From assembly GCF_002954665.1 (NCBI RefSeq), contig NZ_MSCM01000002.1, positions 1,243,718-1,307,717 of the forward strand: DNA of 64,000 nucleotides, in the 5' to 3' direction. Each line of letters starts with the position of its first letter. Position 1 is the stretch's first letter. Shown one piece after another: positions 22,403-32,692 of this stretch. A program made the position numbers and the translations under genes. This DNA comes from Polaribacter glomeratus (GTDB taxonomy: Bacteria; Bacteroidota; Bacteroidia; Flavobacteriales; Flavobacteriaceae). The notes beneath the pieces were generated by a model. That model had not been told where the DNA came from. It made no database searches and was given only the letters and a program-made list of their open reading frames with translations.

Positions 22403-22846
22403 TTAAAATTCAATTTTAGATTTAAATGGTTCAGACCATTTTGATGCTCTTCCAATTGCAGGTGTAATTGTAGCAAATACTTTTAGTTTTTTAGAAAAAT
22501 GAGAACTCATTTTTGATAGTTTCCCTAATTGTAACTGCATTGGTAATTGTATTGTTTCGTTCTTTTTAACGACTAAAACTTTTTGAGAAGATACCCCAAG
22601 ATATTCATCTTTTCTATCTAATGAAATAGGTATTACTTTACTTTCGTCCCAATTAGGTAAAATTAAAGGCTCATCTTCTTCACCGTGAATATCGTAGATA
22701 AAAGCATGTATATAGTACTCCATCTGAAGAGAAATATCTAAGTCATGAAACTCTAATTCTACAACAACAGTTAAATCATTAACAGTATCATTAACAACAA
22801 TTACTTCTGGAATAGAAAGTAAGCGAACCGATATAATTTTTGACAT
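22403..22846 (-). CDS. Uncharacterised 147-residue beta-rich protein
   Basis: I do not recognise this protein. There is no signal peptide or membrane segment; the pattern is mainly beta strands (VIVVNDTVNDLTVVVELEF, KVLVVKKNETIQLPMQLQL), with a possible Ig-like or C2-like fold. It lies between the ATPase operon (271 bp downstream) and the lipocalin-lipoprotein operon, from which it is separated by a strong terminator. It therefore has its own promoter. By position it may be a cytoplasmic partner of the envelope island; there is no direct evidence. Confidence 0.7.
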   Translation of the reverse strand: MSKIISVRLLSIPEVIVVNDTVNDLTVVVELEFHDLDISLQMEYYIHAFIYDIHGEEDEPLILPNWDESKVIPISLDRKDEYLGVSSQKVLVVKKNETIQLPMQLQLGKLSKMSSHFSKKLKVFATITPAIGRASKWSEPFKSKIEF

Positions 22847-22950
22847 GGTTTTAATTTTAGGGATTAATTATTTTTTAAAAGAACGATTAAACTTGTAGTT
22901 GTTAATTGCTTTTTACACACGAGACCATCTTAGTTTAAAATAGTTTTGTT

Positions 22951-22994
22951 TTTAAATAAATAAAAGGGCTTCTAAGCCCTTTTATTTATTTAAA
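22951..22994 (-). terminator. Strong 20-bp-stem terminator ending the OMP/lipoprotein operon
   Basis: TTTAAATAAATAAAAGGGCT (22951–22970) pairs perfectly with 22975–22994 around a 4-nt loop. The G+C core AAGGGCT/AGCCCTT is flanked by A/T runs, so it can work on both strands. It overlaps the stop of the predicted 33-residue peptide and closes the operon that starts at 27882. Confidence 0.9.
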
Positions 22995-23091
22995 GTTTAT
23001 GAACTTTGTATTTGTATAATGAAGTGCTTTTAGGTTTTTGCGGATATAAATTAGAAAAATTATTATTTAATTCTAATTCTTTTTTCTTCAT
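22990..23091 (-). CDS. Possible 33-residue basic peptide
   Basis: An open frame starts with ATG at 23091, 11 bp after the lipoprotein gene stop. It encodes 33 residues beginning MKKKELELNNNF and ending KVHKL, and stops exactly inside the terminator stem. It has Lys/Asn-rich composition and no membrane segment. The position between gene and terminator, with nothing else to explain the roughly 110 bp, is the main support. It is short enough to be chance. Confidence 0.4.
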   Translation of the reverse strand: MKKKELELNNNFSNLYPQKPKSTSLYKYKVHKL

Positions 23092-23102
23092 TTTATTTTA
23101 AA

Positions 23103-23519
23103 CTATTTCTTTGAAAACACTTCTGTTCTTGAAGCGCTAATCTCAGAAGAAAATTTTCTAAAATTATCTTGAAAAGTAATATTTAAATCCGGTCCAGCAG
23201 TTCCGCCATTAGGGGTAAGCTTGTAGTCATTATTTCCAATGTTTTCCCAAGTACCATTTATTTGCACTGCAGTAGCACAATTTGTAGTAGATGATCCAGA
23301 AAATGTAGTTACTTTATATGTTCTATTCGCAGAAAATATATATTCTACTAATTCATCACAAATTATTTCTTCTGTTAGTTTACCATCTTGAACATAATAA
23401 TCTAAATTCCAAGTACCAATCAAATCAGCAGAACCACCACCCATTGGGCCATCGTCATCCTTAGAACATGAAAAGATTAACACTAAAATACTTGCTGATA
23501 ATAAAATTATTTTTTTCAT
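23103..23519 (-). CDS. Lipocalin-like surface lipoprotein
   Basis: The 138-residue protein has a lipoprotein signal with lipobox LIFSC (Cys18), followed by SKDDD. This acidic pattern after the Cys resembles the export signal of Bacteroidota surface lipoproteins, so the protein may face outwards. The remainder is a lipocalin-like domain with two characteristic GTW motifs (LIGTWNLDYY and INGTWENIGNNDYKL). It follows the large barrel protein by 30 bp in the same operon. The ligand is unknown. Confidence 0.82.
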   Translation of the reverse strand: MKKIILLSASILVLIFSCSKDDDGPMGGGSADLIGTWNLDYYVQDGKLTEEIICDELVEYIFSANRTYKVTTFSGSSTTNCATAVQINGTWENIGNNDYKLTPNGGTAGPDLNITFQDNFRKFSSEISASRTEVFSKK

Positions 23520-23549
23520 AATTGTTTAATTTCTATTGTTTACTATTTA

Positions 23550-25889
23550 TTAGAATTTTAAGTTGTAGCCAATTGCTATTTGGTTGTATTTAAAAGAGTT
23601 ACGCATTGTGTAGTCTATATATAAGTTTTTATGAAGTACTGGTAATTTTGTACCTATAATCATATTATAAAAGCCAGTAGCTCCATTAACTAAATTTCCA
23701 AAACCTAGACCTGCTCCAGCGTAAGGTTTATACTTATCGCTACCAATTGAAATAGGATGTACAAAGTTACCAGATAATGCCCAAGTACTAGACTCTCCAA
23801 AACCTAGATATAATTCTGGCATAAATTCTATTTTTGTTTTTATAACGTCGTAATGCAATCGAACACCAAAATTAGCTGTTGATGCGCCGCCGTAATTAAA
23901 GCCTACCATTGTAGAAAAGCTATTGTATACTAATAAAGATTCATTAGCAAAAGTATTAATAGTTACTTCTCTTTCTGTCTCTATTGTAGGTTCTACAAGT
24001 ACGGTTTGATTTTTATTTGTGTCTATTTTTTTGTTTAATACATCAATTTTATCAAGAATAACACCATTCATTTTATCAACTTGTTGTTTTTCATTTACAT
24101 CATTAGAAGTGTTATTATCTAATTTTGTAGTTCCTTGAGCTTGTTTTGCATTAAGTTCTAATAATAGTTTTTCAAGTACTTCAACACGTTTATTTAACTG
24201 TTCTATTTTCTCATCTTTAATTGATTCATTAACCTTTGAAGGTGTAATGGTGTCTTTTTTCTTTAAAGAAGTAGTAGATTCGTCAAGATTGTTTATAATA
24301 CGTTGAATAAGAGTTTCAAATTGTTCTGGACTCATTTGAATAAGTCTAGACTTTTCTACTGTATTTTCAACTTTTTTTACAGCTTCTTTTTCCGAAGTTT
24401 TAGTTGAAGTAGTAGCCATAACTTTAGCTTCTTTTTGTTGTTGCACTTCTTCTACAGCTTCAACTTCTCCAAGAGACTTGGTAACTTGTTTCTTTTCTTC
24501 TAATATTTGAACGGCTTTATCAACATCTTTAGCTTTGTAAGCTTCTTTTAGATCGTTTTCTAGAACTTGAATCTTAGATTGATAATCTTGCTTTAATTGC
24601 GCAATCTTGTTGCTACTTATAGTTTGTTGCACAGATATTTCTCTATCTAAATTTTCTCTGTAAACGGTGTTAGGAGCTTTAGATTTTGCACCTAAAGTAA
24701 ATTTAAGTCCTGCGTTGTAGAAAATATGAGTTTGTATATCATCTGTATTAACAATGTCAGCAACATTTTCACCCGAAGTAATCATCGCTCTAGCGCCACC
24801 ACTAATTAAAACATGTTTTCCCAAAGGGATGTTAAGTCCTAAACCACCTGTTGCAAATTCACCACCTTCAAGTACAGAAAAACTACCATCTGCATTTGCC
24901 ATTGGCATATAATCACTACCAGGAGATAAATAACCACCACCCAAAATTAAGAAAGGTGTAACACCATTACCGTCGTTTAGGCGTGCTCTAAATTCACCAC
25001 CATACATTGCCATTTTATCAAAATCTGTAGAAATATTTTCATTCTGTGTTGCTTGAAAATAAAATGCGCGAATTCCTATATATTCATTTAAATCTAAACC
25101 AGCAAAACCTCCTAACCAATAAGTGTCTCTAAATAACGAGCTACTATCAAAATCTGTATACGCTAAACCAGGTTCAATAACCCATTGTAAACCTTTAAAG
25201 CCACCTTTAAATCTTTGTAAATAAGCTTCGTCTAATTCTGATAAAATTCCAGGTCTTCTACCGCCTAGGTAAAATTGTAAAGAACCTTGTAAAGACCAGT
25301 TTGTTAATCTTTCATTCTCAAAATCAGCATCGGTAACACCAAAATCTGTTTTATTACCGTCTGATAAAAGATGCATACCAGAATTAAATCTATAAGTAGT
25401 ATTTTTTGCTTCTAAAGAGAATACAATACGGTCAGATAATTTAAACTTAGTTCCTAAACCTAATGAGCCATAAACTTGTTCAAAGTCTCCAGAGTTTTCT
25501 GGGTTAATGTTTTGAACACCAGCACCAAGAGTAAGATAAGGTCTAATGCCTTTTGTGCCAAAATTAGCTTTAAATTCTCCACCCCAACGTGTTACAGTAA
25601 CATTTTGTGAATTAAACAATGCATCGTCATAACCTGCAATACCAAAATCTTTAAAATTTGTTTTTAAATCTAAAGATTGTAAATAAATTGCTCTAAGTTC
25701 TACAAATTCTCCAAATCCAAAACCTAGCTTACCACCTACAAAGAGGTTATCTTCAAAACCAGCTTTATTGTCCCACCAAGTATACTCAGCAGCAGGAGAT
25801 AGCGTAAAACTGATGTCTTTAACTTGCGCCTTACTAACTAAAATGGTTAGAAATAAAAGTGTTATTGTTATTTGTCTTGTTTTCATCAT
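23550..25889 (-). CDS. Large outer-membrane protein: two barrel domains, helical linker, third barrel
   Basis: I do not recognise a named family. The 779-residue protein has a signal peptide (about 1–21). Two successive regions of amphipathic beta strands with Gly/aromatic turns (about 25–210 and 230–400) look like small OmpA-type barrels. A charged helical region (about 410–640) is probably coiled coil, and a third barrel-like region (about 650–779) ends in Phe (NLKF). Three barrel-like segments with a periplasmic-type linker in one chain is unusual. It belongs to the operon starting at 27882, and may connect outer membrane and periplasm. Confidence 0.8.
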   Translation of the reverse strand: MMKTRQITITLLFLTILVSKAQVKDISFTLSPAAEYTWWDNKAGFEDNLFVGGKLGFGFGEFVELRAIYLQSLDLKTNFKDFGIAGYDDALFNSQNVTVTRWGGEFKANFGTKGIRPYLTLGAGVQNINPENSGDFEQVYGSLGLGTKFKLSDRIVFSLEAKNTTYRFNSGMHLLSDGNKTDFGVTDADFENERLTNWSLQGSLQFYLGGRRPGILSELDEAYLQRFKGGFKGLQWVIEPGLAYTDFDSSSLFRDTYWLGGFAGLDLNEYIGIRAFYFQATQNENISTDFDKMAMYGGEFRARLNDGNGVTPFLILGGGYLSPGSDYMPMANADGSFSVLEGGEFATGGLGLNIPLGKHVLISGGARAMITSGENVADIVNTDDIQTHIFYNAGLKFTLGAKSKAPNTVYRENLDREISVQQTISSNKIAQLKQDYQSKIQVLENDLKEAYKAKDVDKAVQILEEKKQVTKSLGEVEAVEEVQQQKEAKVMATTSTKTSEKEAVKKVENTVEKSRLIQMSPEQFETLIQRIINNLDESTTSLKKKDTITPSKVNESIKDEKIEQLNKRVEVLEKLLLELNAKQAQGTTKLDNNTSNDVNEKQQVDKMNGVILDKIDVLNKKIDTNKNQTVLVEPTIETEREVTINTFANESLLVYNSFSTMVGFNYGGASTANFGVRLHYDVIKTKIEFMPELYLGFGESSTWALSGNFVHPISIGSDKYKPYAGAGLGFGNLVNGATGFYNMIIGTKLPVLHKNLYIDYTMRNSFKYNQIAIGYNLKF

Positions 25890-25967
25890 TAATTATTTTT
25901 TTTTAAATTTTATTCATGCTGTTCATTATTAATAAATTAGCTATTTAAAAAACGATGTTCTTGTTTT

Positions 25968-26303
25968 TTAAAATTCGGCCGCTAAAATATTAATTTTTTC
26001 ATCAGCTTTTACAATATTTTTGGCTTCATTTTTAAGTTGCTGTATTTCAGCATTTTTTTGGAGCTCAATAATTTGTTTTTGCAATTTGGTAATAAGTACT
26101 TCTCTTTTTAAATCTTTCATCTTGTCCCAAATCATATAGACACCTAGAATAATAAACCCAAAAACTTGAAGTATTACTAAAGGCAGTGTAGAAATTATGC
26201 CAAACCCTAAATCAAAATCAAGAAATGTTGTAAACAAATCTATATTAAAAATGAATAGTAGAACATTAACTGCTAAGTAAATAAATATAATTATATATTT
26301 CAT
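25968..26303 (-). CDS. Small two-TM membrane protein with coiled-coil tail
   Basis: The 111-residue protein has two membrane segments (about 2–20 and 34–56). A Lys/Glu/Gln-rich cytoplasmic-type helix (about 62–100, KLQKQIIELQKNAEIQQLK) follows that should form a coiled coil. It starts 1 bp after the stop of the upstream 170-residue gene, so the two are translationally close. No family recognised; probably an inner-membrane partner in the ECF-controlled operon. Confidence 0.75.
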   Translation of the reverse strand: MKYIIIFIYLAVNVLLFIFNIDLFTTFLDFDLGFGIISTLPLVILQVFGFIILGVYMIWDKMKDLKREVLITKLQKQIIELQKNAEIQQLKNEAKNIVKADEKINILAAEF

Positions 26304-26304
26304 T

Positions 26305-26817
26305 TTAGTGGTTTTCTAATTCTTCAAGTTCTTTTAAAATAGCTGATAATCGGTTTTTGTTTGCTTCAAATTCTTCAACAATTTCTACAATGTTACTAGA
26401 GGTTAAAAAAGGTTTGTGTAAAGTGCCGTTTTCTAAATAATGATCAAATGAAATAACACCAAAACTGTGTTTAAGTTGTATTTGACGTTTTTGCAGCTTT
26501 GCTTCTTCTTTAAGTAATGTTTGCTTTTCTGTATAATCGTGTATTTTATCTGATGTTTCAGAAACTAACTCTGAACCAGCTACATAAGCCTTTGCTGATG
26601 TTTCTGCAACTTTACCACCTGCAACAGCCACTTTTTCACCTACATAAGACGCACCTTCCATTACATTTTCTGTAACATTATCTATAAGGTTTTTAAAAAA
26701 ACCTTTTTTTGGCTTAGTAGTGCTTTCTTTTTCTGTGTTTTTATTTTCAGACGAACTAGTTTCTGTGGCACTAATCTCTATAATTTTATTTTCTGTACTA
26801 TTATTTTCTGTACTCAT
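26305..26817 (-). CDS. Hydrophilic protein with amphipathic helix (YtxH/LEA-like composition)
   Basis: The 170-residue protein has no signal peptide. A Ser/Thr/Glu-rich disordered N-terminus (1–36) is followed by an Ala/Gly/Val amphipathic stretch (about 40–90) with KVAVAGGKVAETSAKAY-type periodicity, as in YtxH- or LEA-like stress proteins. A charged C-terminal helical part contains an HSFGVISFDHYLENGTLHKP segment. It lies 27 bp after the coiled-coil lipoprotein gene and 1 bp before the two-TM gene. The stress-protein resemblance is compositional only. Confidence 0.72.
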   Translation of the reverse strand: MSTENNSTENKIIEISATETSSSENKNTEKESTTKPKKGFFKNLIDNVTENVMEGASYVGEKVAVAGGKVAETSAKAYVAGSELVSETSDKIHDYTEKQTLLKEEAKLQKRQIQLKHSFGVISFDHYLENGTLHKPFLTSSNIVEIVEEFEANKNRLSAILKELEELENH

Positions 26818-26844
26818 TTTCTAAATTTTTTATATCTTAATTTC

Positions 26845-27882
26845 TTATGATTGTTGTTTTTTTGATTTTCTCATTTTTCCTACAAAATAAAATAGCACAA
26901 GAATTAAAGCGATAAGTCCTACAACAATAAGAGCCGTATTCTTCATTTTATCTTTTTTAGCGTTTTCTAAATCAGTTTTTTGCTTTTCTAACGCTGCGTT
27001 TGCTTCAATACTTTCTCTAATATTTAAAGCTGCTAACTCTTGCTTATTATATTGTTTTGTTTCAAAATTATTTTTATTACCAGAGTAATATTGAATTTGA
27101 CCGTTAATTGAATCGCTTTCTTTTGAGTTTGTTTCTAAGTTTGAGGCTATTACTTTAAGTTGATCCATTAACCTGCCTTGTTCTTCTTTAGCGTACTCGT
27201 CAAATATTTGTTTAGCAGTGTAATTATTTCTAATTTTATTACCAAGAGATTTACGTTGCTCATCAATAGATGTTACTTGATCTTTTACATCTGCAATAGT
27301 AGTTTTTAAGGTTTTAACTTTTAAAGTTTGTTCTCTTATTTTTCCATTTATACCAGCTAAAAGTGAATCTACTACTTTAAAATCTTCTGGTGCAGCACCT
27401 TTAGACCACAAAGCACTGTGTTGCGCGTCATAAACAGTTTTTTCTTCGTTTAATAAACCAATTTTCTTTTCAGCTAATACCGTTTCTTTTTCTTGCAATA
27501 CTAGTTGTTCAGAGGCATTTTCTCTTTGCCCTTTAAGTTCTGCTAATTTAGAATTAACACCTTCAATGCCTGGTGCAATTTTCTTAGCATTTACTTGTTC
27601 TAAAGATTTTTTAACTTCTGTTAATAACTTAGAAACTGAATCTTTTTTTCTATTAAGTATTGCTAATTTTTGTTTTGCTGATAACTGAGTGTTTTTTAAA
27701 TCGCTTAATTTATCGCTTATATTGCTTATCGAATCTTTATAAGAAACAACTTCTACTTTTACCGTTTCAGTAGTTTGTTGCTTGCTTTTTAATTCTTCAA
27801 GACTATTTGATTTTGATTTTTGTTCTCCACAAGCCATCAATAAACTTAAAAAGAGAGCATACATTACATATTTTGTTTTCAT
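26845..27882 (-). CDS. Coiled-coil lipoprotein with C-terminal membrane anchor
   Basis: The 345-residue protein starts with a lipoprotein signal with lipobox LLMAC (Cys18), with no acidic surface-export signal after it. About 290 residues of nearly continuous coiled coil follow (about 25–310). A single membrane helix (about 315–337, NTALIVVGLIALILVLFYFV) and a basic tail (GKMRKSKKQQS) end it. A lipid anchor at one end and a membrane helix at the other could bridge outer and inner membranes. First gene of the operon, 18 bp after an ECF-type promoter element. Function unknown. Confidence 0.78.
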   Translation of the reverse strand: MKTKYVMYALFLSLLMACGEQKSKSNSLEELKSKQQTTETVKVEVVSYKDSISNISDKLSDLKNTQLSAKQKLAILNRKKDSVSKLLTEVKKSLEQVNAKKIAPGIEGVNSKLAELKGQRENASEQLVLQEKETVLAEKKIGLLNEEKTVYDAQHSALWSKGAAPEDFKVVDSLLAGINGKIREQTLKVKTLKTTIADVKDQVTSIDEQRKSLGNKIRNNYTAKQIFDEYAKEEQGRLMDQLKVIASNLETNSKESDSINGQIQYYSGNKNNFETKQYNKQELAALNIRESIEANAALEKQKTDLENAKKDKMKNTALIVVGLIALILVLFYFVGKMRKSKKQQS

Positions 27883-27900
27883 CGATTAAATAATTTGTAT

Positions 27901-27941
27901 AGTTACTCTTATATGACTGTAACTTTTTAAATAAGTCACTT
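27901..27941 (-). promoter_or_regulatory. ECF-type promoter of the 27882→22951 operon
   Basis: Read on the minus strand: AAGTGACTT, 12 nt, ACAGTC, 8 nt, GTAACT, then 18 nt to the ATG. It contains TGAC–N17–GTC, the spacing of ECF sigma promoters. The same blocks with the same N12/N8 spacing precede the ECF sigma gene at 32167–32207, and with N12/N10 the OmpA-like gene. Confidence 0.75.
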
Positions 27942-27973
27942 AATAAAGTTATATTTTTGAAAAATATTTTATA

Positions 27974-28016
27974 AAGTGACTTTTAAGTCTTTTTACAGTC
28001 AAATAATTAAGTAACT
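27974..28016 (+). promoter_or_regulatory. ECF-type promoter of the OmpA-like gene
   Basis: AAGTGACTT (27974–27982), 12 nt, ACAGTC (27995–28000), 10 nt, GTAACT (28011–28016), then 16 nt to the TTG start. TGAC–N17–GTC is preserved. It faces the minus-strand copy at 27901–27941, so the 150-bp gap is a divergent ECF promoter pair forming a near-palindrome. Confidence 0.75.
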
Positions 28017-28032
28017 ATAAAACACAAGAAAA

Positions 28033-29127
28033 TTGAAAACTAATAACCACCTTACAATTCTATTATTGCTTTTTTTATCACTATCGGGAATTACAACTAA
28101 CGCACAACAAGTAGAGGTAGATAATTCTGAAAGTTTAATTGTGATGAGTGAAGATGATATTATCTCTTTAGCGAATACATTGAGAGAACTCAAAAAAAAC
28201 TATACAACTAGCGTTTCTTCAAATAAAGCTAATACAGCAAACACCAAAATTAGCACTTTAGATAAAAGCATTTTAGAAGTAGCGTATTTAAAAAAGCAAA
28301 TTGTTTTATTAGAAGCGCAAATAAAAGAGTATGAAACTGCTAAAAACAGCACAATCTCGAGTTCAGCAGCAATTAATAATACGAATAGTTTAAATCAAAG
28401 AGAACTAAATAGCATTAAGCAAGACATCAATCAGCTTAGAGATCTTATCAGTCAATTGGCAATTAAAACCAAAAGTGACCTTACTGTTATTGTGCCATCA
28501 ACTCAACTTATTACTAAAACAGAAATAATGCCAGTGGTAACTAAAACAAAAATAGTGCCAGCTGTAACCAAGGCAGAGATAGTGCCAGTGTCAACAATTA
28601 TTAAGGAGCAAATACCAACTGAAAACAAAGAAAATTTAGCGCTAAAAAAACAATTAGATAGCCTTACTGTTTTAGTTAAAAACTTTAAAGAGGCAGATTA
28701 TACTAAAGATTTTAAGACTTTAGAAAACAGAATTGAAGAATTAAAGAAAGAATTAGCTTTAAAAGAAGTTGCACAACCTGTTGTGGATAAAAATTTAATA
28801 AATAAATACAAAGGATTTACTAAAGACATTTATTTTTCTAATAACTCTAAAGTTTTAAACGACCAAAGCACTAAAATAATTGATGAATTAAATGAAATTC
28901 TTACTAAAAATAATAATATAGATCTCGTTGTCAAAGGATTTGCTAGTAATAAAGGTGCAGCGTTGTACAACGAAAATTTATCAATGATGCGAACAGAATC
29001 TGTGAAAAAAGCATTGATTTTAAAAGGTGTTAATCCATTAAGAATTTTAACAGAATACCACGGTATAGATTACAATGCAAAAGCTGATAAAGCAAGAAGA
29101 GTTGAAATTTCTATAATAGTTAGATAA
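28033..29127 (+). CDS. OmpA-family protein with coiled-coil and short repeats, TTG start
   Basis: The 364-residue protein starts at TTG (28033): the next in-frame ATG would remove the signal peptide (about 1–24, TTNAQ), and the promoter spacing fits this start. A helical/coiled-coil region contains three 9-residue units of the type KTEIMPVVT (codons at 28516–28596). It ends in an OmpA peptidoglycan-binding domain (about 258–364), with KDIYFSNNSKVLNDQSTK and late Arg-Arg-Val-Glu. There is no N-terminal barrel, so it is probably a periplasmic or outer-membrane-associated peptidoglycan tether. Divergent from and probably co-regulated with the coiled-coil lipoprotein operon. Confidence 0.85.
   Translation: MKTNNHLTILLLLFLSLSGITTNAQQVEVDNSESLIVMSEDDIISLANTLRELKKNYTTSVSSNKANTANTKISTLDKSILEVAYLKKQIVLLEAQIKEYETAKNSTISSSAAINNTNSLNQRELNSIKQDINQLRDLISQLAIKTKSDLTVIVPSTQLITKTEIMPVVTKTKIVPAVTKAEIVPVSTIIKEQIPTENKENLALKKQLDSLTVLVKNFKEADYTKDFKTLENRIEELKKELALKEVAQPVVDKNLINKYKGFTKDIYFSNNSKVLNDQSTKIIDELNEILTKNNNIDLVVKGFASNKGAALYNENLSMMRTESVKKALILKGVNPLRILTEYHGIDYNAKADKARRVEISIIVR
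28516..28596 (+). repeat. Three in-frame 27-bp tandem repeats in the OmpA-like gene
   Basis: Units at 28516–28542, 28543–28569 and 28570–28596 encode KTEIMPVVT, KTKIVPAVT and KAEIVPVST. They lie in the linker before the OmpA domain and could vary in number between strains. Confidence 0.75.
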
Positions 29128-29149
29128 TAATCGACACATATTTAATTTA

Positions 29150-29189
29150 AAAGAAGGCTACGAAATTATTTAATTTTTTAGCCTTCTTT
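29150..29189 (+). terminator. Terminator after the OmpA-like gene
   Basis: AAAGAAGGCTA (29150–29160) pairs with TAGCCTTCTTT (29179–29189) around an 18-nt loop, followed by a short T-rich stretch. The stop codon is 23 bp upstream. Confidence 0.7.
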
Positions 29190-29295
29190 CTTTGGATGAA
29201 TTTAGCGAAATTTAAAGTTATTAATTTGTTTTACAAACTATTTTCACTAGATTTTAGCAACTATTTATTGTTCTTTTAAAGGTGGCTCATAAAGC

Positions 29296-29332
29296 AAAAA
29301 GACCTAAACTTGATGTAAGTTTAGGTCTTTTT
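29296..29332 (-). terminator. Terminator after the LapA-like gene
   Basis: A 16-bp perfect stem (29296–29311 with 29317–29332) with core GACCTAAACTT, loop GATGT, and A/T runs at both ends. It sits 20 bp past the stop of the minus-strand gene and is symmetrical enough to act in both directions. Confidence 0.88.
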
Positions 29333-29352
29333 GTATAAAAAATTAAGTAAAC

Positions 29353-29562
29353 TTAATTGCCAATCTTTTTTGTTACAGGTTTCTTTATAGATGCCAAAAT
29401 ACCAACAATTACTCCAATCGCAAAACTACCAAGTATAATAAGTACTCTAGACATTGTTAATTTCCAGAATAAAAACTTAACATCGGTAACTTCAACATTT
29501 TGTATTGAAAATATTACGATAACGGTAGCAAATACAATTGCCAATACAGTTTTAAACTTCAT
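29353..29562 (-). CDS. LapA-domain small membrane protein
   Basis: The 69-residue protein has two membrane helices (about 4–22 and 38–58) separated by the QNVEVTDVKFLFWKLTMS loop, typical of the LapA (lipopolysaccharide assembly protein A) domain family. A short basic tail follows. It starts 4 bp after the head GIN protein gene, so they are co-transcribed. The role in this phylum is not well defined. Confidence 0.82.
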   Translation of the reverse strand: MKFKTVLAIVFATVIVIFSIQNVEVTDVKFLFWKLTMSRVLIILGSFAIGVIVGILASIKKPVTKKIGN

Positions 29563-29566
29563 AGAA

Positions 29567-30388
29567 TTACTTTTTTATAATTTGCGATTTATCGTTTAAA
29601 CCTTCAACTTTAATTTCTGGGTTTCCATAAACATAAATATCACTTTTACCTTTTGCATAGATATTTAAATCTTTGCTTGCATTTACACGTATTTTGGAAG
29701 AATCGGAAGCATTAATAACTGCACTCGTAGTCTTTAATTTTCTTGCATCAATATCCGAAGAACCTGTAGTAACAAGGTTTAAATTGTCGCTGCTACCTTT
29801 AATACTCATATCTGATCGTTTGTTCAATGCTAAATTAAAATTATCTGTAGAAATACTTCCTTTTAAATTAGCGTTGTCGTTTAAAGTCATAGTAGTTTCT
29901 TTACTATTTAATTTTAAATCTCCCTTAGCGTTACCATTCATTTGTAGCCTTAAATTATTCGATTTAATATCTAAATCAAAATCAGAACCATCTAAACTTA
30001 TCAATTCTACATCCTCTAATTTTAAATTATTTTGACCTTTAATTTTAGCATTTTGACCAATAGTAACTTTATTAAGTGATAAAAAGGTTACATAAATTTC
30101 TAATTTTTTGCTTGATACAATATTGCTGGTTGTTGAGATTTTTAATTTTCCGTTAAAAACCTCAAAACGAATAACTTCTGCTAAATTCGAGTCTGTTTTT
30201 AAACGATACCCTTCAGAGTTTGTTTGCATTAAGGATACTTCTAATCCATCTGTTACCTCTAATTCTGTGTAGCTGTCTAAGTCTTTGTAAACTTCAACTA
30301 CATCTTTATTTCCTTTAATTTTTTGTTTTTTCTGTGCAGTTATTGTTACAGAAAGTAATAGTAATACTGCTATTGTTATTGTTTTCAT
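29567..30388 (-). CDS. Head GIN domain (DUF2807) secreted protein
   Basis: The 273-residue protein has a signal peptide (about 1–18, ITAQ). A long right-handed beta-solenoid-like region follows of alternating short strands with Ser/Asp/Asn turns (GSDFDLDIKSNNLRLQMNG type), as in the DUF2807 or head GIN family of Bacteroidota. These are envelope proteins of unknown function, often near sigma or anti-sigma genes. The 136-bp gap to the MscS-type gene includes an ATT×8 microsatellite in the leader. Confidence 0.85.
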   Translation of the reverse strand: MKTITIAVLLLLSVTITAQKKQKIKGNKDVVEVYKDLDSYTELEVTDGLEVSLMQTNSEGYRLKTDSNLAEVIRFEVFNGKLKISTTSNIVSSKKLEIYVTFLSLNKVTIGQNAKIKGQNNLKLEDVELISLDGSDFDLDIKSNNLRLQMNGNAKGDLKLNSKETTMTLNDNANLKGSISTDNFNLALNKRSDMSIKGSSDNLNLVTTGSSDIDARKLKTTSAVINASDSSKIRVNASKDLNIYAKGKSDIYVYGNPEIKVEGLNDKSQIIKK

Positions 30389-30414
30389 TGTTTAAATTTT
30401 ATGTTAAAAAAGTG

Positions 30415-30438
30415 ATTATTATTATTATTATTATTATT
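30415..30438 (-). repeat. ATT×8 trinucleotide repeat in the leader of the DUF2807 gene
   Basis: Eight perfect ATT units lie 26–49 bp upstream of the gene start, in the 5' untranslated or promoter area. Such tracts can change length by slippage and alter expression. Confidence 0.85.
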
Positions 30439-30524
30439 TGTGATCTTATTTTTCTCGTACTTTAAAAGTATTTGTTTTAATTATAATTGATAAAATTTAA
30501 ACTAAACGCTTTAGAAAATCCTTT

Positions 30525-31370
30525 TTAATTAGTATTTTTTTCTTTTTTCTTTATTACTATTTTGCTAACAACCTCCTTAATAGGTATTACAATTTCATCG
30601 CCATTTGAAACTTGAACACTTAAGCAAATATTATCTATAGAAATAATTTTACCAGAGATATCGCCAATAGTAATTAATTGTCCTATTTCGAAATTGCGTT
30701 TAGAGTAAAATGAAAAAAGTAAACTGTTAATAATGTCTTTAGAGCCTAAACCAAACCCAATTACAACAGTTGTTAATAAGCCGCCTAAAATTAATGTAAG
30801 ATTGTTTGTAATTAAGTCTGTGTTAACACCAGCTTGATTCATTGCCGTAACTGTAATTGTAACAATAATTATATAAAACACGAAGCTGCTAATAATTGAA
30901 CCTCCTTGTAAATCAAAAGATTCAAACAAACCTTTAATTGTTTTTTTGATAAAATTAGCAATGTATAAACCAATCATAAATAAGGTAATTGCGCTAAATA
31001 ATTTAGGTAAATAACTTAATAATTTACCTATTTCTATAGATACAATCTCCCAGTTCATTATATCTGAAGCTATAATTAAAAAAACTAAAAAAAGCACCCA
31101 TTTTACAAAACCAACAATTACAGAAGTAACATTAAATTTTAAATCTGTTTTGCCAAATAAATTTTTTTCGTTGATGACTTCTGTTAATTTATCAACCTTA
31201 GAAAACTTTAAAGCTCGTTTTAAAAGAAAGGTTACTAATTTTGTAAGTATCCAACCAATCATTAATATTAATATTGCAAAAAGCACTTTTGGTGCAGCTT
31301 CTGCAATGTTATGCGCCATTTGGTTTAACGACGTCATTGTTAAATTTTTAATATCACTAATTGTTTCCAT
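30525..31370 (-). CDS. Short MscS-type mechanosensitive channel
   Basis: The 281-residue protein has about five hydrophobic segments (about 28–52, 80–103, 120–142, 158–178, 187–212). The last contains LILGGLLTTVVIGFGLGSKD, which matches the MscS pore helix plus linker. The beta-domain (FEIGQLITIGDISGKIISID) follows, but the protein ends soon after it (KKKEKNTN), so the usual C-terminal alpha/beta vestibule is missing. It follows the 60-residue gene by 24 bp, inside the sigma-factor operon. A tension-gated channel as direct partner of an ECF sigma factor is suggestive. Confidence 0.85.
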   Translation of the reverse strand: METISDIKNLTMTSLNQMAHNIAEAAPKVLFAILILMIGWILTKLVTFLLKRALKFSKVDKLTEVINEKNLFGKTDLKFNVTSVIVGFVKWVLFLVFLIIASDIMNWEIVSIEIGKLLSYLPKLFSAITLFMIGLYIANFIKKTIKGLFESFDLQGGSIISSFVFYIIIVTITVTAMNQAGVNTDLITNNLTLILGGLLTTVVIGFGLGSKDIINSLLFSFYSKRNFEIGQLITIGDISGKIISIDNICLSVQVSNGDEIVIPIKEVVSKIVIKKKEKNTN

Positions 31371-31394
31371 TTTTGTTACTTTTAAATTTATTGA

Positions 31395-31577
31395 TTATTC
31401 TTTCTTCTTTTTTTCAAAAAAGGTCTTCGCTGCTTTTGGATAATTGAACATAAACAAATTTGCCACTTCTTGAAACAATTTTATTCTTGCAATCTCAGAC
31501 ATGACTTTTACTTTAAAATCGCTTGGCGTTTCTTGAGGCGGATGTGCAATTTTTTTAAATGGGTTCTGTTCTTCCAT
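31395..31577 (-). CDS. 60-residue protein coupled to the ECF sigma factor
   Basis: I recognise no family. The small basic protein has no membrane segment: a Pro-rich start (MEEQNPFKKIAHPPQ), a helical middle (SDFKVKVMSEIARIKLFQEV) and a Lys-rich end. It starts 3 bp after the sigma gene stop and precedes the MscS-type gene. The place is where an anti-sigma factor is normally found, and no classic one (FecR, zinc-binding or TM anti-sigma) is present. It could be a soluble regulator of the sigma factor; this is inference. Confidence 0.7.
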   Translation of the reverse strand: MEEQNPFKKIAHPPQETPSDFKVKVMSEIARIKLFQEVANLFMFNYPKAAKTFFEKKKKE

Positions 31578-31580
31578 TAC

Positions 31581-32153
31581 TTAGTCTTTTAAATTATTGT
31601 AGGCTATTATTATTCTTGCTTTTGCTCTTTTAAGCCTCATCTTTACAGCACTTTCGTTAATTTCTAAAATATCCATAATATCTTTTATAGAAAAATCGTC
31701 TTGGTATTTTAATAATAGTATCATTTTATCTTCTGGTGCTATAATCTCTAATGCAAGCTTTAGTAAATTTTCTCTCATTTGAAAAAGAGAATAATCTTCT
31801 GTTTCTTCTTGAAAAGCATTCAAGTCTTCAAGTTCCATCTCATTAGAACTAACTGTTTTTATCACATTTTTATTTACATAATCTACACACATATTATAAG
31901 TTAAGGAATACATCCATGTAGAGAATTTTGATTTACCTTGAAAAGTTGATGATTTTTGATACAATTTTACAAAAACGTCTTGCGCCAAATCTTTAGCTTC
32001 TGCATTTGTTTTTGTAAAACCATAACATTTATTATAAACGATGTTCGAGTATCTCTCGTACAAAACTCCAAAGAGTAAGTCATTTTTAGTTTCATTTATT
32101 TGTTGCACAAGCTCCTCGTCTGTTAAATCGTGGAACGCATTTTTATTTTTCAA
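31581..32153 (-). CDS. ECF-type RNA polymerase sigma factor
   Basis: The 190-residue protein has sigma region 2 (about 28–95), including AEAKDLAQDVFVKLYQ and the FSTWMYSLTYNMCVDYVNK recognition helix. Region 4 (about 130–188) contains FSIKDIMDILEINESAVKM as the helix–turn–helix. Length is normal for ECF factors. The gene is preceded by an ECF-type promoter element that is shared with the OmpA-like and coiled-coil-lipoprotein promoters, so it is probably autoregulated. Next genes are the 60-residue protein (3 bp) and an MscS-type channel, suggesting a response to envelope tension or osmotic change. Confidence 0.93.
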   Translation of the reverse strand: MKNKNAFHDLTDEELVQQINETKNDLLFGVLYERYSNIVYNKCYGFTKTNAEAKDLAQDVFVKLYQKSSTFQGKSKFSTWMYSLTYNMCVDYVNKNVIKTVSSNEMELEDLNAFQEETEDYSLFQMRENLLKLALEIIAPEDKMILLLKYQDDFSIKDIMDILEINESAVKMRLKRAKARIIIAYNNLKD

Positions 32154-32692
32154 GGGTTTAAAAATTAGTTACAATTGTTTGACTGTGTTTTTAATAAAAA
32201 GTCACTTTAAATTTAATTAATAACATAGGTTTTCTGCTGTTTTTTAGAAAACAGGATGAATTATTTTAAAATATTTTGAACAGATTACTCGTATAAGAAA
32301 CTACATTCATCTATTTTTTAATTGATAAAGTTTTTTAAAGGGTAGCCTTTTTAGCTCGATATAGCAATCAAAGGCATTAAAAGAAACTTCTAAAAAGGCT
32401 GTCTTAAATTTAGTCTTTTAAAATTAAAATAGCTACAATAATAGGTAAATGATAGATTTAAAAATCAAATAAAAACGGACTATAATTAACCTATACCTTA
32501 CTTTACAATAAAAAGTTAATGAGGTTGTCATGATTGTTTTAGTTTTTAATTACTCTAAAAACAGAAGTTTATGATAATAATCTTGTGTTTGATAATTAGT
32601 CTAAAAATGAATCTTAACTTATTTTTAAGAAGCAATTTTATTTAAATATAAAATTACAATGCTTTAATAAAACAACCAAAAACTATAATAAT
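32154..32692. other. 539-bp gap holding the sigma-factor promoter and an inverted repeat
   Basis: It contains the ECF-type promoter at 32167–32207 and a perfect 11-bp inverted repeat, AGCCTTTTTAG (32345–32355) with CTAAAAAGGCT (32391–32401), with a 35-nt loop. No reading frame of interest. A segment like AAGGCTGTCTTAAATTTA near 32395 recurs approximately, in inverse orientation, near 63690. Confidence 0.6.
32167..32207 (-). promoter_or_regulatory. ECF-type promoter of the sigma-factor operon
   Basis: Read on the minus strand: AAGTGACTT, 12 nt, ACAGTC, 8 nt, GTAACT, then 13 nt to the ATG. TGAC–N17–GTC fits a typical ECF -35/-10 pair. Identical blocks and N12/N8 spacing occur at 27901–27941. 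Confidence 0.78.

Follow-up and report, generated by a model that had tools for sequence, protein, structure and literature searches.

A channel-associated ECF sigma factor of Polaribacter glomeratus and its probable promoters

The sigma operon and three probable promoter elements

The window analysed here is a stretch of 64,000 nucleotides of the flavobacterium Polaribacter glomeratus (assembly GCF_002954665.1, contig NZ_MSCM01000002.1, positions 1,243,718 to 1,307,717), in which one sequence element occurs ahead of a gene for an extracytoplasmic function (ECF) sigma factor, here called SigX1, ahead of an operon headed by a coiled-coil lipoprotein gene and ahead of an OmpA-like gene (Table 1). 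A preliminary description of this DNA had proposed that the element contains the -35 and -10 boxes of an ECF promoter, through which the sigma factor regulates itself and drives the adjacent envelope genes. Direct reading confirmed the position and sequence of all three copies, the identical TGAC-N17-GTC spacing within them and their ends at 13 nt (sigma), 18 nt (lipoprotein) and 16 nt (OmpA-like) ahead of the start codons, which are TTG, ATG and TTG, respectively (two of the three being TTG). In the sigma-operon copy, GTGACTT would form the -35 box and, after N15, GTC the -10 box, with CA before it and GTAACT in the leader. The lipoprotein-operon and OmpA-like elements are divergent and 32 bp apart, and the bases between and around the boxes differ among the three sites. 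A scan of the window for TGAC-N17-GTC returned six matches, only at these three sites, against an expectation of 1.63, and none of 100 shuffles reached six; the number is twice that of the sites because TGACT...AGTCA is a dyad, so that the pattern fits either strand at an offset of one base.

Table 1. Features of the window considered in the text
Feature	Coordinates	Strand	Details
Putative promoter element, sigma operon	32167..32207	minus (32207-32167)	AAGTGACTT-N12-ACAGTC-N8-GTAACT, 41 nt
Putative promoter element, coiled-coil-lipoprotein operon	27901..27941	minus (27941-27901)	identical core, N8, 41 nt
Putative promoter element, OmpA-like gene	27974..28016	plus	identical core, N10, 43 nt
ECF sigma factor SigX1	31581..32153	minus	190 aa, TTG start; Pfam, NCBIfam
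60-aa soluble protein	31395..31577	minus	CfrX-like by position only
MscS-type mechanosensitive channel	30525..31370	minus	CmpX-like by position; Pfam MS_channel_1st_1 1.5e-18, MS_channel_2nd 4.5e-5
DUF2807 (head GIN domain) protein	29567..30388	minus	Pfam 1.1e-37; order kept in L045-L048
69-aa membrane protein	29353..29562	minus	LapA-like by eye; conserved neighbour, 61.9-76.6% identity in L045-L048
OmpA-domain protein	28033..29127	plus	364 aa, TTG start; Pfam OmpA 1.1e-13, no other domain
Coiled-coil lipoprotein	26845..27882	minus	345 aa, lipobox by eye; heads leftward operon
Remaining leftward operon	23103..26817	minus	170 aa, 111 aa, 779 aa, 138 aa (lipoprotein by eye)
Island (OmpA-like gene and leftward operon)	22847..29352		inside a block contiguous in relatives
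147-aa protein	22403..22846	minus	far edge of interrupted block; 49.7, 52.8 and 63.9% identity in L046, L047 and L048

The SigX1 protein matched Pfam families Sigma70_r2 (1.8e-15) and Sigma70_r4_2 (9.2e-10) above cut-off, region 3 not being among the matches, and its best NCBIfam match was the Pseudomonas-type SigX (NF007222, 98.9 bits). The SigX model had 19 matches in the genome, at the top of which stood two channel-associated sigma factors (98.2 and 90.4 bits), followed by a match at 73.9 bits. The sigma gene is followed, in order, by the genes for the 60-aa protein, the MscS channel, the DUF2807 protein and the 69-aa membrane protein. Among 16 aligned sequences of the 60-aa protein, residues N5, P6, F7, P18, K22, V25, M26, K33 and L41 were invariant, and helices are predicted at 19-44 and 46-59; the structural model had a pLDDT (predicted local distance difference test score) of 79.2 and a pTM (predicted template modelling score) of 0.42. 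The protein had no Pfam match above cut-off and no NCBIfam match. The Pfam and NCBIfam matches of ten neighbouring proteins included no anti-sigma family, and no gene for a membrane (class I) anti-sigma factor was found beside the sigma gene, whose downstream neighbours are the 60-aa protein and the channel.

The core of the element is rare. A scan of the genome (4,064,562 bases in four contigs) for AAGTGACTT-N12-ACAGTC, tolerating up to two mismatches, yielded three exact copies and a single match with two mismatches but no copy with one, and the reversed-pattern control yielded none, so the element does not occur at random rates; chance falls far short of explaining three exact copies in 4.3 kb. 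When 58 genomes of the genus, this one included, were scanned at up to one mismatch, 11 had matches, and the only exact copies were the three in the window. Ten other genomes had a single match apiece, always with one mismatch, which is chance level (10 in all; control, 7). The relaxed core GTGACYT-N15-GTC had nine matches in the P. glomeratus genome (control, 1), one of which, C1:2369624, lies inside a coding region and is chance-like.

Conservation of the promoter and its association with the sigma gene

In 114 loci, 116 related sigma genes scored above 100 bits and had at least about 160 nt of upstream sequence; 95 remained after identical genes had been removed. Within 150 nt upstream, GTGAC-N17-GTC was present in 69 of these 95, compared with a mean of 0.02 after dinucleotide shuffling. 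Other spacings were scarce (N16 and N18 in two genes each, N11 in one, and none at the rest of the range from 10 to 24), and the alignment that had been suggested as a check on the element, that of regions upstream of related sigma genes, thus came out in its favor. The core is likewise found ahead of the sigma orthologues of L045, L046/L050 and L047. The operon is conserved likewise: an MscS gene lay within 600 nt downstream of the sigma gene in 90 of the 95 and the 60-aa protein was detected in 80, and inspection of 20 larger loci, chosen from the best sigma matches, showed both in every one.

The preliminary description had included the GTAACT tail in the element, and this part of its claim, unlike that concerning the core boxes, was not borne out. 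GTAACT is taken to be leader rather than promoter core, since it lies at the expected transcript start and at a variable distance (8 or 10). Among the 69 motif-bearing related sigma genes, AACC or AACT occurred in the leader of 52 (shuffled mean, 25.1) and the exact GTAACTA in two (shuffled mean, 0.32); GTAACT was rejected as a promoter box in favor of a loosely conserved leader.

The motif also tracks the sigma gene at the level of whole genomes. In a family set of 199 genomes from 198 genera, with the sigma factor scored as present at E<=1e-30 and at most 16 candidates scored per genome, it was found in 75. The strict family motif, GTGACTT-N13-GTGTCTTA, had 83 matches in 51 genomes, and its reversed control had two; with the spacing shifted by one base, in a pattern that contained one more fixed T, there was one match. 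The strict motif occurred in 50 of the 75 genomes with the sigma factor versus one of the 124 without it (Fisher test, 6.6e-27, uncorrected for kinship), and after removal of the 21 matches marked as the sigma factor's own promoter these counts were 43 of 75 and one of 124 (6.3e-22, likewise uncorrected).

Of the 95 sigma genes, 72 have TTG as their first in-frame start codon and lack an ATG as far as codon 12, seven have TTG followed later by an ATG, ten have GTG and six have ATG; a TTG start is thus seen in most sigma genes of this kind (L015-L129), and likewise in the window at 32151-32153 and, for the OmpA-like gene, at 28033-28035. A short inverted repeat, TAGC...GCTA, was often noticed by eye just before the TTG of common-type sigma genes (L056, L057, L058, L059, L061, L064, L065, L066). 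Several genomes carry a second, shorter sigma gene next to the first (L060, L061, L108/L119, L194/L117), for which neither an MscS gene within 600 nt nor the motif was detected.

Genes and candidate small RNAs behind the motif

Inspection covered 71 sites, comprising two relaxed matches from the P. glomeratus genome and 69 of the 83 strict matches, of which the remaining 14 precede sigma genes; gene classes were assigned by eye, with one to two members per class confirmed by Pfam. Behind these sites lay genes for sigma factors (7), DUF2853 (4) and DUF3078 (3) proteins, MscS channels (4, plus one pair of 60-aa and MscS genes, L185), LysM or LysM/BON proteins (6), M48 peptidases (2), MscL (1) and an aquaporin (1), as well as rpoD (1). 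In P. glomeratus itself, the relaxed motif precedes a DUF3078 gene and the gene of a protein sorted by the type IX secretion system (T9SS). By eye, it was also found before rpoD in all three genomes of L045-L047 and, in Mariniflexile gromovii, before MscL, DUF2853 and DUF3078 genes, although the control was not small for this relaxed pattern (17 matches in the L045-L047 genomes versus six reversed). The motif lies about 110 nt ahead of rpoD in four genomes (L190, L238, L240, L245). Its placement before rpoD hints at an input from the ECF module into the housekeeping sigma factor.

At 18 of the 71 sites, a hairpin resembling an intrinsic terminator precedes any open reading frame (ORF) of 50 aa, and these sites look like promoters of candidate small RNAs (sRNAs). 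The same test at other offsets gave 0/31, 0/31, 2/34, 11/70, 4/70, 3/69 and 4/67, so the excess is modest relative to the +400 offset, which may often hit gene ends. A search of Rfam with 17 loci that hold 17 of the 18 candidates (L179 left out) returned two matches, both far below gathering scores. Two candidates belong to P. glomeratus (G000:C1:1767329, L227, and G000:C2:1587067, L228), with hairpins 74 and 103 nt after the -10 box, no ORF of 50 aa before the hairpin and no Rfam match near a gathering score. Two short AT-rich words recur among the 18, GCTATTA in eight (L165, L166, L168, L172, L177, L207, L215, L221) and GGTTAG in five (L184, L186, L187, L192, L228), and are possibly the seed regions of two sRNA families.

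Two modules and two promoter classes

The genome contains a second operon of sigma, 60-aa protein and MscS genes, at C1:2143574. In a phylogenetic tree, this paralogous sigma factor groups with the genus, and SigX1 with Flaviramulus and Mariniflexile (support 100/99). The -10 flank follows the same division: the SigX1 clade of four has CAGTC (three) or CCGTC (one), and the promoter of the paralogue has TGTGTC. Among 92 aligned sigma factors (three short ones of the 95 having been dropped), the five bases ending the -10 box were GTGTC in 61, GTTTC in six, CAGTC in three, GGGTC in two, CCGTC in one and AATTC in one, with 18 unassigned.

The clade of four carries Met88 and Asp91, and the 61 GTGTC sigma factors carry Asn91 together with His, Phe or Tyr at position 88. 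Thirteen positions, these two included, are uniform in the clade and almost always different in the 61; residue 91 was picked on structural grounds, and one clade represents one event. The loop that forms the core-base pocket is nearly unchanged between the groups, with one variable residue. In E. coli sigma-E, the residue aligned with position 91 is the second Asn of NTAKNYL. In a structural study of another ECF sigma factor, bases -14 and -13 are suggested as possible contacts of the C-terminal helix of region 2, and loop L3 as the element that sets the core base (PMC6372665). If the C of GTC is numbered -11, as in our own mapping, the bases changed here fall at -15 and -14, and the structural fit is therefore partial. 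A fifth Asp91 sigma factor (L054) has GGGTC at another spacing and adds no independent confirmation, and the GTTTC-type sigma factors show no difference at residue 91.

Genomes with and without the second sigma type point in the same direction, in small numbers. In the two that by this search have SigX1 only (L046, L047), none of seven relaxed matches ended in GTGTC, versus six of ten in M. gromovii, which has both types (reversed control, 3 in each case); the second sigma factor of M. gromovii had no clear motif of its own.

The envelope-gene island

The OmpA-domain protein has, by eye, a signal peptide and a middle part rich in coiled coil. The leftward operon comprises five genes whose ORFs are 1-78 nt apart, and its 779-aa product resembles an outer-membrane barrel by eye and by weak matches below cut-off. 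A search of the other 198 family genomes at E<=1e-10 found no relative of the coiled-coil lipoprotein. Coiled-coil envelope proteins, 32.5% identical to each other, lie behind a CAGTC site in M. gromovii and a TCGTC site in Mariniflexile sp. AS56 and form a parallel to the lipoprotein of the window.

The order of sigma, 60-aa protein, MscS, DUF2807 and 69-aa genes is retained in all four named relative loci (L045-L048), which come from M. gromovii, Flaviramulus multivorans, Mariniflexile sp. AS56 and an uncultured Psychroserpens. In three of the four (L046, L047, L048), the 69-aa gene is directly followed by a homologue of the 147-aa gene, which was not found in the stretch of L045 examined, and the envelope genes are thus regarded as an island in the P. 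glomeratus genome. The stretches examined of the four loci had no OmpA or lipoprotein gene matches, and no OmpA-type gene stands beside the sigma gene there. No relative of the MscS protein above 45% identity was found in the other 57 genus genomes, and sigma factors 68-71% identical to SigX1 are present in other genera; the SigX1 module is accordingly accessory in the genus, either transferred into it or lost elsewhere.

The 779-aa barrel-like protein (23550-25889), which has a coiled-coil middle, is accompanied by an OmpA-like partner in four other genomes as well (L269-L272), divergent in two and in tandem in two. Ancient control of the OmpA and barrel genes by the sigma factor was considered and found unsupported, the exact motif preceding either gene in none of these four. 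L269 has a GTGAC-N17-GTC site downstream of the barrel gene, and the N-terminus of its OmpA-like protein looks truncated.

Interpretation and alternatives

The three elements are very probably promoters read by RNA polymerase containing the sigma factor encoded at 31581-32153, autoregulation included. Sequence comparison supports the conservation and spacing of the promoter, the link between motif and sigma gene among genomes and the conservation of the operon, and with 69 of 95 sigma genes and 50 of 75 versus one of 124 genomes it sustains the proposal that the sites are ECF -35 and -10 boxes serving the sigma gene and the adjacent envelope genes.

Some observations count against this interpretation. 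The NF007222 score of SigX1 (98.9 bits; 98.2 in the genome-wide scan) is about half the cut-off of 194 bits. The exact motif is absent before 26 of the 95 sigma genes, some of which show near variants such as GTTTC, and the strict family motif is absent from 25 of the 75 sigma-bearing genomes, one of which, G103, was counted on a 38% match containing a stop. No such promoter lies between the barrel and OmpA genes of L269 and L270, which leaves ancient sigma control of these genes unsupported. Finally, a paralogous sigma factor could also read CAGTC sites.

This last point leads to the foremost alternative, that the sites, although genuine ECF promoters, serve mainly another sigma factor, most likely the paralogue at C1:2143574. 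The GTGACTT and GTC core is common to the promoters of both sigma factors, and the loop that recognizes the core base is nearly identical in the two. However, the paralogue has TGTGTC at its own promoter, the -10 flank and residue 91 differ together, and the GTGTC endings are distributed among genomes as described above, so that this alternative is considered unlikely; the bases next to GTC suggest that SigX1, and not another sigma factor, reads the three sites. Binding of a dimeric transcription factor to the TGACT...AGTCA inverted repeat, with GTAACT as a half-site, would agree with the matches on both strands of all three sites. This symmetry is limited to the CAGTCA form, though: the common family form, GTGACTT...GTGTCTTA, is asymmetric and yet keeps the N17 spacing, the motif tracks the sigma gene across family genomes and the distance to GTAACT varies. 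A dyad-binding factor is therefore disfavored, and its involvement would be quite surprising. Chance, or recent copying of one promoter with no shared regulation, is hardly credible in spite of two sites lying only 32 bp apart, as the sequences between and flanking the boxes differ, the exact core occurs three times against a control of zero and the core is kept before sigma genes of other genera.

With the elements read as SigX1 promoters, the sigma factor would be the output arm of a channel-associated envelope-stress module, encoded with the 60-aa protein and the MscS-type channel in one autoregulated operon. The channel would sense membrane tension or envelope damage, and the 60-aa protein, which may be an anti-sigma factor or an adaptor, would relay the state of the channel, most simply by keeping the sigma factor inactive at rest. 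Once freed, the sigma factor would bind core polymerase and initiate transcripts from TGAC-N17-GTC promoters; its own operon would thereby be amplified, and the OmpA-domain protein and the coiled-coil-lipoprotein operon, which would reinforce the envelope, would be turned on. That the module senses membrane tension has about even chances of being correct.

A broader proposal is a widespread tension-responsive ECF pathway of the Flavobacteriaceae, parallel to Pseudomonas SigX. It would consist of an autoregulated operon of sigma factor, 60-aa adaptor and MscS channel, mostly with TTG starts; a regulon that takes in MscS and MscL as safety valves against osmotic stress, an aquaporin, LysM proteins, the housekeeping sigma gene rpoD and sRNAs not described before; and duplicate modules separated by the bases before the -10 GTC, matched by a change of Asn to Asp at residue 91, in sigma region 2. 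Taken jointly, these parts form a tentative picture that is somewhat doubtful as a whole, not least because residue 91 is one of the 13 separating positions and because of the partial structural fit.

Relation to known systems and broader meaning

Sigma-E (RpoE) of E. coli is subject to autoregulation, recognizes a GTC-type -10 box and controls sRNAs. Like SigX1 in the reading proposed here, it is an ECF envelope-stress sigma factor, and the sequence of SigX1 matches its structure, 1or7, at 1.1e-11. Unlike in the E. coli system, the -35 box here is GTGACTT, the sigma factor is associated with an MscS channel and no anti-sigma family was matched among its neighbours.

Another parallel is the SigX (ECF102)/CfrX/CmpX/OprF system of Pseudomonas, in which an ECF sigma factor similarly has a small soluble protein and an MscS-type channel as neighbours. 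Pseudomonas SigX is reported to contribute to its own transcription and to drive oprF and cfrX-cmpX, and a mechanosensing complex has been proposed (PMC3832394, PMC7641640, PMC8999054). The two systems also have in common an own promoter and, here as a likely target, an OmpA-domain envelope protein, and the motif 26 nt before a 63-aa protein gene followed by an MscS gene in L185 resembles the SigX-dependent cfrX promoter reported in PMC7641640. In contrast, the sigma gene comes first here, whereas cmaX-cfrX-cmpX lies upstream of sigX in Pseudomonas; the small protein has 60 aa rather than the 84 of CfrX, which it resembles by position only; the OmpA-like protein, unlike OprF, has no porin domain match; and three strict sites compare with 307 genes altered in a Pseudomonas sigX mutant (PMC3832394).

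Within the family, the accessible text on Flavobacterium psychrophilum describes an experimentally mapped ECF-type promoter class, SM6, with a CGT box at -10, which, unlike the class described here, goes with T9SS genes and a sigma/anti-sigma pair (PMC9723704). That text names no GTGAC-N17-GTC class or channel-linked sigma factor, and the word 'mechanosensitive' occurs 0 times in it. For Bacteroidetes or flavobacteria, searches by title and the start of the abstract found no ECF sigma factor linked to a mechanosensitive channel, with subscription journals and ECF classification papers largely outside their coverage.

The way in which a mechanosensitive channel can govern a sigma factor is an open question for which Pseudomonas SigX is the one case studied (PMC8999054), and the promoter consensus of SigX is called not precisely defined in PMC7641640. 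Comparison of genomes and loci provides good support for a channel-associated envelope-stress sigma module that is widespread in the Flavobacteriaceae, and for this module we infer a sensing mechanism, sRNAs and promoter discrimination. Because it is compact, with a sigma factor found in 75 of 199 family genomes and a promoter of sharp definition, and because a single cell has two copies of it that differ in promoter class, it offers a case in which the sensing step, the regulon and promoter discrimination are directly testable in environmental flavobacteria.

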